Origin: Thioalkalivibrio halophilus
GTDB lineage: Bacteria; Pseudomonadota; Gammaproteobacteria; Ectothiorhodospirales; Ectothiorhodospiraceae
NCBI RefSeq assembly: GCF_001995255.1
Contig: NZ_MUZR01000016.1
Span: 1 to 59,848 of the forward strand
Length of the DNA stretch: 59,848 bases
Direction of reading: 5' to 3'
Shown: in pieces, positions 58,624-59,848 of the stretch
Numbering within the stretch: the stretch's first letter is position 1
Layout of the letters: each line of letters starts with the position of its first letter
Made by a program: the position numbers and the translations under genes
Notes under the pieces: model-generated
Told to the model about the DNA's origin: nothing
The model's database searches: none
The model's input: the letters and a program-made list of their open reading frames with translations, nothing else

Positions 58624-59848
58624 TCAACTGCTCAGCGTGCGGAGCAGGTTGGAATAGTCCTCGTCGAGGCTCGCGTCCGACTCGCGCAGTTCCGCGATCT
58701 TGCGGCAGGCATGCATGACCGTCGTGTGATCGCGCCCGCCAAAGGCCTGACCGATCTCCGGCAGGCTGTGCTGGGTCAGCTCCTTGGCCAGAGCCATCGC
58801 TACCTGACGTGGCCGCGCGATCGAGCGGCTGCGGCGCGTGGACAGCAGATCCGCGACCTTGATCCGGTAATAATCGGCCACCGTCTTCTGGATGTTCTCC
58901 AGCGTAATCAGCTTGTTCTGCACCGCCAGCAGGTCGCGCAGCGCCTCCTTGGCGAAGTCCACCGTGATCGGCTTGCCGGTGAAGTGGGCGTTTGCCAGGA
59001 CCCGGCGCAGCGAACCTTCCAGTTCGCGGATGTTCGAGCGGATTCGCTTGCCCATGAAGAAGGCCACCTCGCTGGGCAGTTCGATCCCCGCCTGTTCCGC
59101 CTTGCGCTGCAGGATGGCGACACGGGTCTCCAGTTCCGGCGGTTCGATCGCGATGGTCAGTCCCCAGCCGAACCGGGACTTCAGGCGTTCCTCCAGCCCC
59201 TCGACTTCCTTGGGGTAACGGTCGGAGGTCAGGATGATCTGCTGCTGGCCTTCCAGGAGCGCGTTGAAGGTGTGGAAGAATTCCTCCTGCGAGCGTTCCT
59301 TTCCGGCAAAGAACTGGATGTCATCGATCAGCAGCGCATCCGCACTCCGGTAGTGCTGTTTGAAGTCGTCGATCGCGTTGTGCTGCAGCGCCTTGATCAT
59401 GTCCGCCACGAAGCGCTCGGAATGGAGATAGATGATCCGGCCTTCCGGCTGACGCGCCAGGATGCTGTTGCCGATCGCATGCATCAGATGGGTCTTGCCC
59501 AGGCCGACACCGCCGTAAATGAACAGCGGGTTGTAGCCCACCCCGGGGTTTTCGGCTACCTGCAGACTGGCGGCCTTGGCCAGCTGGTTGGACTTCCCCT
59601 CGACGAAGGTCTCGAAAGTGAACGCCGGATTCAGGTTGCTGACCGGTCCGGATGCGCGAGGCGGCGTGCCGGCCCCTTCGGCCGGCCGTGTCCCGGTGGC
59701 GCCCGCCCCGTCGCCTGCCGCTGCCGGCGCCGGTTCCTCGCCGCCGATCCCGAGACGGACGGCCGGTGTCTCACCCCCGGAACCGGCGCCGGCAGCGGCA
59801 GGCGACGGGGCGGGCGCCACCGGGACACGGCCGGCCGAAGGGGCCGGC
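58624..59848 (-). CDS. dnaA: chromosomal replication initiator DnaA (5' truncated)
   Basis: The AAA+ and DNA-binding parts of DnaA are complete: [10 protein letters not shown], Walker [11 protein letters not shown], Walker B LLIDDIQF, sensor region, and the domain IV signature [15 protein letters not shown] near the C-terminus. The frame runs off the right edge, so domain I (the first 80 residues or so) is missing. The Gly/Ala/Pro-rich segment upstream of FTFETF is domain II-like, but part of it lies inside a perfect 70-base inverted repeat that reaches the window end, so this part may be an assembly artefact. A GTG at 59820 should not be taken as the start. Confidence 0.97.
59668..59848. repeat. 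perfect 70-base inverted repeat at the window end
   Basis: 59668-59737 and 59779-59848 are exact reverse complements (70 of 70 bases) with a 41-base loop between them. The right arm ends exactly at the window edge. Inside a coding gene this is unusual and suggests a fold-back or chimeric end in the assembly. Confidence 0.92.

Follow-up and report, generated by a model that had tools for sequence, protein, structure and literature searches.

The perfect inverted repeat at the dnaA edge of the window (the whole stretch of 59,848 nucleotides of Thioalkalivibrio halophilus DNA that was analysed) is almost certainly a fold-back artefact of library preparation that was built into the assembly, and it is taken not to be a biological feature. 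Its arms (59668-59737 and 59779-59848) are complementary at 70 of 70 positions (100%; direct sequence comparison, rechecked) and enclose a loop of 41 nt, and the second arm ends at 59848, the last base of the window. A perfect 70-base inverted repeat reaching the window edge had been reported in the first-pass annotation, and this was exact on recomputation; its placement inside dnaA holds as well, the minus-strand dnaA frame covering both arms. The frames that adjoin dnaA are, as we take them to be from their translations, recF, dnaN and gyrB-like. No other perfect inverted repeat with arms of at least 20 nt and a loop of at most 100 nt is present in the window, and the longest perfect repeat touching any of 20,000 random internal positions of the genome was 16 nt; the 70-nt repeat is well beyond chance. 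GC content is 86% in the arms and 67% in the window, a difference that would be consistent with poor coverage at this place. The parts of the dnaA region and the reading given to each are collected in Table 1.

Table 1. Parts of the dnaA region at the edge of the window and the observations on which their reading is based.
Feature	Position	Strand	Basis
3' portion of dnaA, genuine: 347 codons plus the stop, encoding domains III-IV and the linker's end	58624..59667	-	98% protein match over residues 2-347 to the best relative, G012
Arm 1 (24 residues), most likely true dnaA sequence of the domain II linker	59668..59737	-	Preceded by LGIGG, as in relatives; 42/70 bases shared with G012
Loop, genuine dnaA with VRLGIGG at the domain I/II border	59738..59778	-	30/41 identical to G012; LGIGG in 26/26 same-genus loci
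Innermost bases of arm 2, probably genuine; one side of the short natural inverted repeat at which the strand would have folded back	59779..59790	-	Inferred length, about 8-12 nt
Outer arm 2, false reverse-complement copy of arm 1 in place of domain I	59791..59848	-	Arm 2 18/70 identical to G012 (ungapped); ends at the NN gap

The window stops at 59848 because a gap of 2 N follows at 59849-59850 of the scaffold (G000:C16, 60,147 bp, of which the window is positions 1-59848). Beyond the gap the scaffold continues for 297 bases, which on the minus strand contain the dnaA start VASDSLWRACLDR and its upstream region; arm 2 abuts the gap, and the start of dnaA therefore lies on the gap's other side. 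Exactly 2 N were found in 10 of the 19 gaps inside the fetched stretches, so that this gap length looks like a default and not a measurement. The earlier suggestion of a fold-back at a contig end is supported by the position of arm 2 at the gap, by its mismatch to the dnaA of relatives and by 14 similar edges, but the edge in question is an internal 2-N scaffold gap and not the end of the scaffold. The spacing from LW..C to LGIGG is 40 residues here, against 71-75 in 26 same-genus loci and 75 in G012, which makes the scaffold about 105 nt short; together with about 58 false bases, the true dnaA sequence that is missing would come to an estimated 160 nt and represent most of domain I. The open frame runs across the 2-N gap (463 residues), and annotation could consequently show a seemingly intact DnaA without domain I.

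The genuine part of dnaA was searched in 58 genomes, its own included, and 57 of them matched at the cut-off of E 0.001 or better; G013, G023 and G028 gave only a weak match each (E 1e-15 to 6e-9), possibly to a different DnaA-like protein. The best 29 loci of relatives, 26 from the same genus and 3 from the same family, were examined. All 29 carry the domain I core LNTW[LI]RP, which is missing in the own sequence, and from the DnaA start to the Walker A motif their longest inverted repeat is 7-10 nt at most, against 70 nt here, so that the repeat is not common to the relatives. Immediately before VR-LGIGG, the end of domain I (e.g., SIEEAVSEV) was found in all 15 same-genus loci laid out codon by codon, and the own sequence has arm 2 residues instead; in a genuine coding inverted repeat both arms encode conserved protein, which is not found here. 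Identity to the closest relative was 167 of 200 bases in the flank and fell to the values of Table 1 in the repeat, the reference for arms and loop being relatives and not the strain itself. Arm 1 occupies a stretch that is variable among relatives. The comparison with relatives' dnaA, which the first-pass annotation had proposed, thus left arm 2 unmatched while loop and arm 1 still matched the closest relative, the pattern of a hairpin-primed palindromic artefact, in which the outer arm does not match the reference and the inner arm and loop do. The same annotation had considered the DnaA residues upstream of the loop wrong; this fits, as relatives have domain I there, except that the innermost 8-12 or so bases of arm 2 are probably genuine.

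Domain I was also sought elsewhere in the strain's genome. A Pfam search gave no match to DnaA_N (PF11638) in this genome, of which 24 of 97 contigs consist of N only and could carry domain I; the control search matched 11 of 14 known genomes and exceeded the cut-off in 8 of these. With G012 DNA from before the dnaA start into the linker as the query, domain I was not found elsewhere in the genome, other matches being short and weak (E 0.09 or worse), and the known 5' flank of dnaA was recovered (173 bases, E 1.1e-46). A second dnaA copy was considered at the third own-genome match (C10:59-109) and rejected, since this match (some 50 bases at 78%) has the look of chance similarity in GC-rich DNA. 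The last 249 bases of the window had no match among plasmid records. Named genomes supplied 80 dnaA loci, used as a control only; the best identities reached 78%, and none of the matches listed was from the genus.

The dnaA edge is not the only one of its kind. A survey took in the terminal 20 kb at either end of each contig, together with the window. It yielded 232 edges, 194 of them contig ends and the rest the two flanks of each of 19 gaps; removing the 48 edges that belong to the 24 all-N contigs left 184 readable ones. (These N-only contigs, 24 of 97, are all shorter than 3 kb, e.g., C12, C25, and C31.) A perfect terminal fold-back, with arms of at least 20 nt and the outer arm at the very edge, was detected at 15 of the 184 edges (12 of 146 contig ends and 3 of 38 gap sides) versus 0 of 20,000 random internal positions. 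The arm lengths were 70, 34, 26, 24, and 23 nt and, in ten cases, exactly 20 nt, the loops of these ten ranging from 1 to 75 nt. When all perfect repeats (arms of at least 20 nt, loops of at most 100 nt) were listed in the 1.95 Mb of fetched stretches without the window, 13 of 16 touched an edge; one of the other three is the inner part of a hairpin at the start of C40, itself at an edge, and two are pairings of a dispersed repeat in C30, away from any edge. By the same criteria, no perfect repeat was found in the 111,110 bases of the 29 relatives' loci or in the 538,113 bases of the 80 named-genome dnaA loci; finished genomes of the genus would be a stronger control than these conserved gene neighbourhoods.

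That the domain II linker of dnaA underwent a real and recent inverted duplication is extremely improbable against these observations. Such a duplication would have broken the assembly and left domain I in the unsequenced gap, with a longer Ala/Pro/Gly linker, and a true repeat could likewise stop an assembler; the same pattern, however, occurs at 14 other edges of this assembly, and the 13 of 16 perfect repeats that touch an edge speak against it too. The linker does vary among relatives, but none of their 29 loci holds a repeat longer than 10 nt there. Arm 2 keeps the frame open, although 23 stop-free codons can be reasoned to be common in a GC-rich stretch. Perfect coding inverted repeats do exist in the mitochondria of Nematomorpha (PMC6649704), and the dnaA repeat resembles them in lying inside a protein-coding frame; in those genomes both arms encode conserved protein, whereas here arm 2 replaces the relatives' domain I, and does so at an assembly gap. 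If it were true, a linker duplication in one strain would give a long hairpin in the dnaA gene and message and might affect initiator levels.

The point at which the false copy begins was sought by aligning 6 of the 15 fold-backs with relatives, namely dnaA and the edges in C6, C84, C51, C63, and C54. In C6 the first 9 bases of the outer arm agree with the closest relative and the remainder copies the inner arm, with 3 of the last 11 bases still matching the relative; in C84 the agreement lasts for 8 bases, after which 4 of 12 match, and in C51 9 of the first 10 bases match and then 2 of 10. Since these three switch after 8-10 genuine bases, a short natural inverted repeat lies at the switch in them. 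Against L268 and L274, which are more distant, no leading bases matched (0), because their own sequence differs there. The border is less clear in C63, where the outer arm had 9 of 34 and 19 of 34 matches with two relatives, and in C54, where only 51 of 67 loop bases matched; the C79 edge had no match in 4 relatives' genomes. In dnaA, a stretch containing GGCGCC near the innermost position of arm 2 is, by eye, also present in G012 if the alignment may include a small gap. Because the relative has that gap, it is no more than likely that the dnaA switch point, too, has a short genuine inverted repeat.

For the enzymatic step and the part played by the assembler we infer the following course. 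A short natural inverted repeat would let a single strand of very GC-rich DNA fold onto itself, and a polymerase, copying that strand from its own 3' end, would add a false reverse-complement sequence. The assembler would then extend the contig end with such molecules and halt at the gap. The k-mers common in assembly are longer than the roughly 8-10 nt of genuine complementarity, which suggests that chimeric molecules existed in the library. The exact 20-nt arms in 10 of the 15 fold-backs are unaccounted for by library chemistry and count against a library origin alone; ten arms of one fixed length suggest that some assembler rule cut the tails to 20 nt. These arms also look like the mark of software in the case of a pure assembler error, in which a contig end was joined to its own reverse strand and no chimeric molecules existed, but a junction with complementarity shorter than common k-mers should need read support, and such an error is very improbable as the whole explanation.

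A fold-back of library molecules has counterparts in the literature. According to Star et al. (2014; PMC3946424), hairpins arise in Illumina reads from short natural reverse complements, the 3' end being extended by a polymerase on the same strand, so that the inner part of the resulting palindrome is genuine and the outer part artificial. The dnaA repeat is like these artefacts in being an interrupted perfect palindrome with a genuine inner and an artificial outer part; a switch at short natural reverse complements is clear at three sister edges and likely in dnaA. It differs in that those were single reads of historic DNA with an average palindrome of 11 bp, whereas the present cases are GC-rich edges of assembled contigs with arms of 20-70 nt. 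In the same paper, libraries made from modern DNA seldom contained palindromes of more than 3 bp, and the reads with palindromes were rich in AT, unlike the GC-rich DNA here; both points speak in part against a simple transfer of the published mechanism. Foldback artefacts of long reads (PMC12870357) are similar in that a technical fold-back can be mistaken for a structural variant, but they were described in Nanopore and PacBio reads, and the reads behind the present assembly may be of another kind. A paper on Thioalkalivibrio genomes names an Illumina 270-bp library, Velvet, wgsim pseudo-reads, and ALLPATHS-LG (PMC4624188), a procedure that may not apply to the present assembly. Fold-backs at contig ends were absent from the matches listed in a broad literature search, and the artefact papers were found separately.

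The value of the dnaA fold-back is that of a quality warning and not of new biology. Similar tails at the 14 other edges can mislead the calling of gene ends and surveys of terminators, hairpins, and inverted repeats made from draft genomes. They could be flagged simply, by testing each contig edge for reverse complementarity to nearby sequence.

Two features met in the survey are described here in their own right. The hairpin at the start of C40 (positions 1-131) has arms of 62 nt with one mismatch (61 of 62 paired) and a loop of 7, is about 90% GC, and is the second longest fold-back of the assembly. Between the tRNA-Ser and tRNA-Val genes of C30 (11923-12055), the element GGCCAGAGGGCTGGCCTCC occurs several times in both orientations; the exact 19-mer gave 18 matches at 17 distinct places in the fetched stretches, and the element is a dispersed REP-like repeat.
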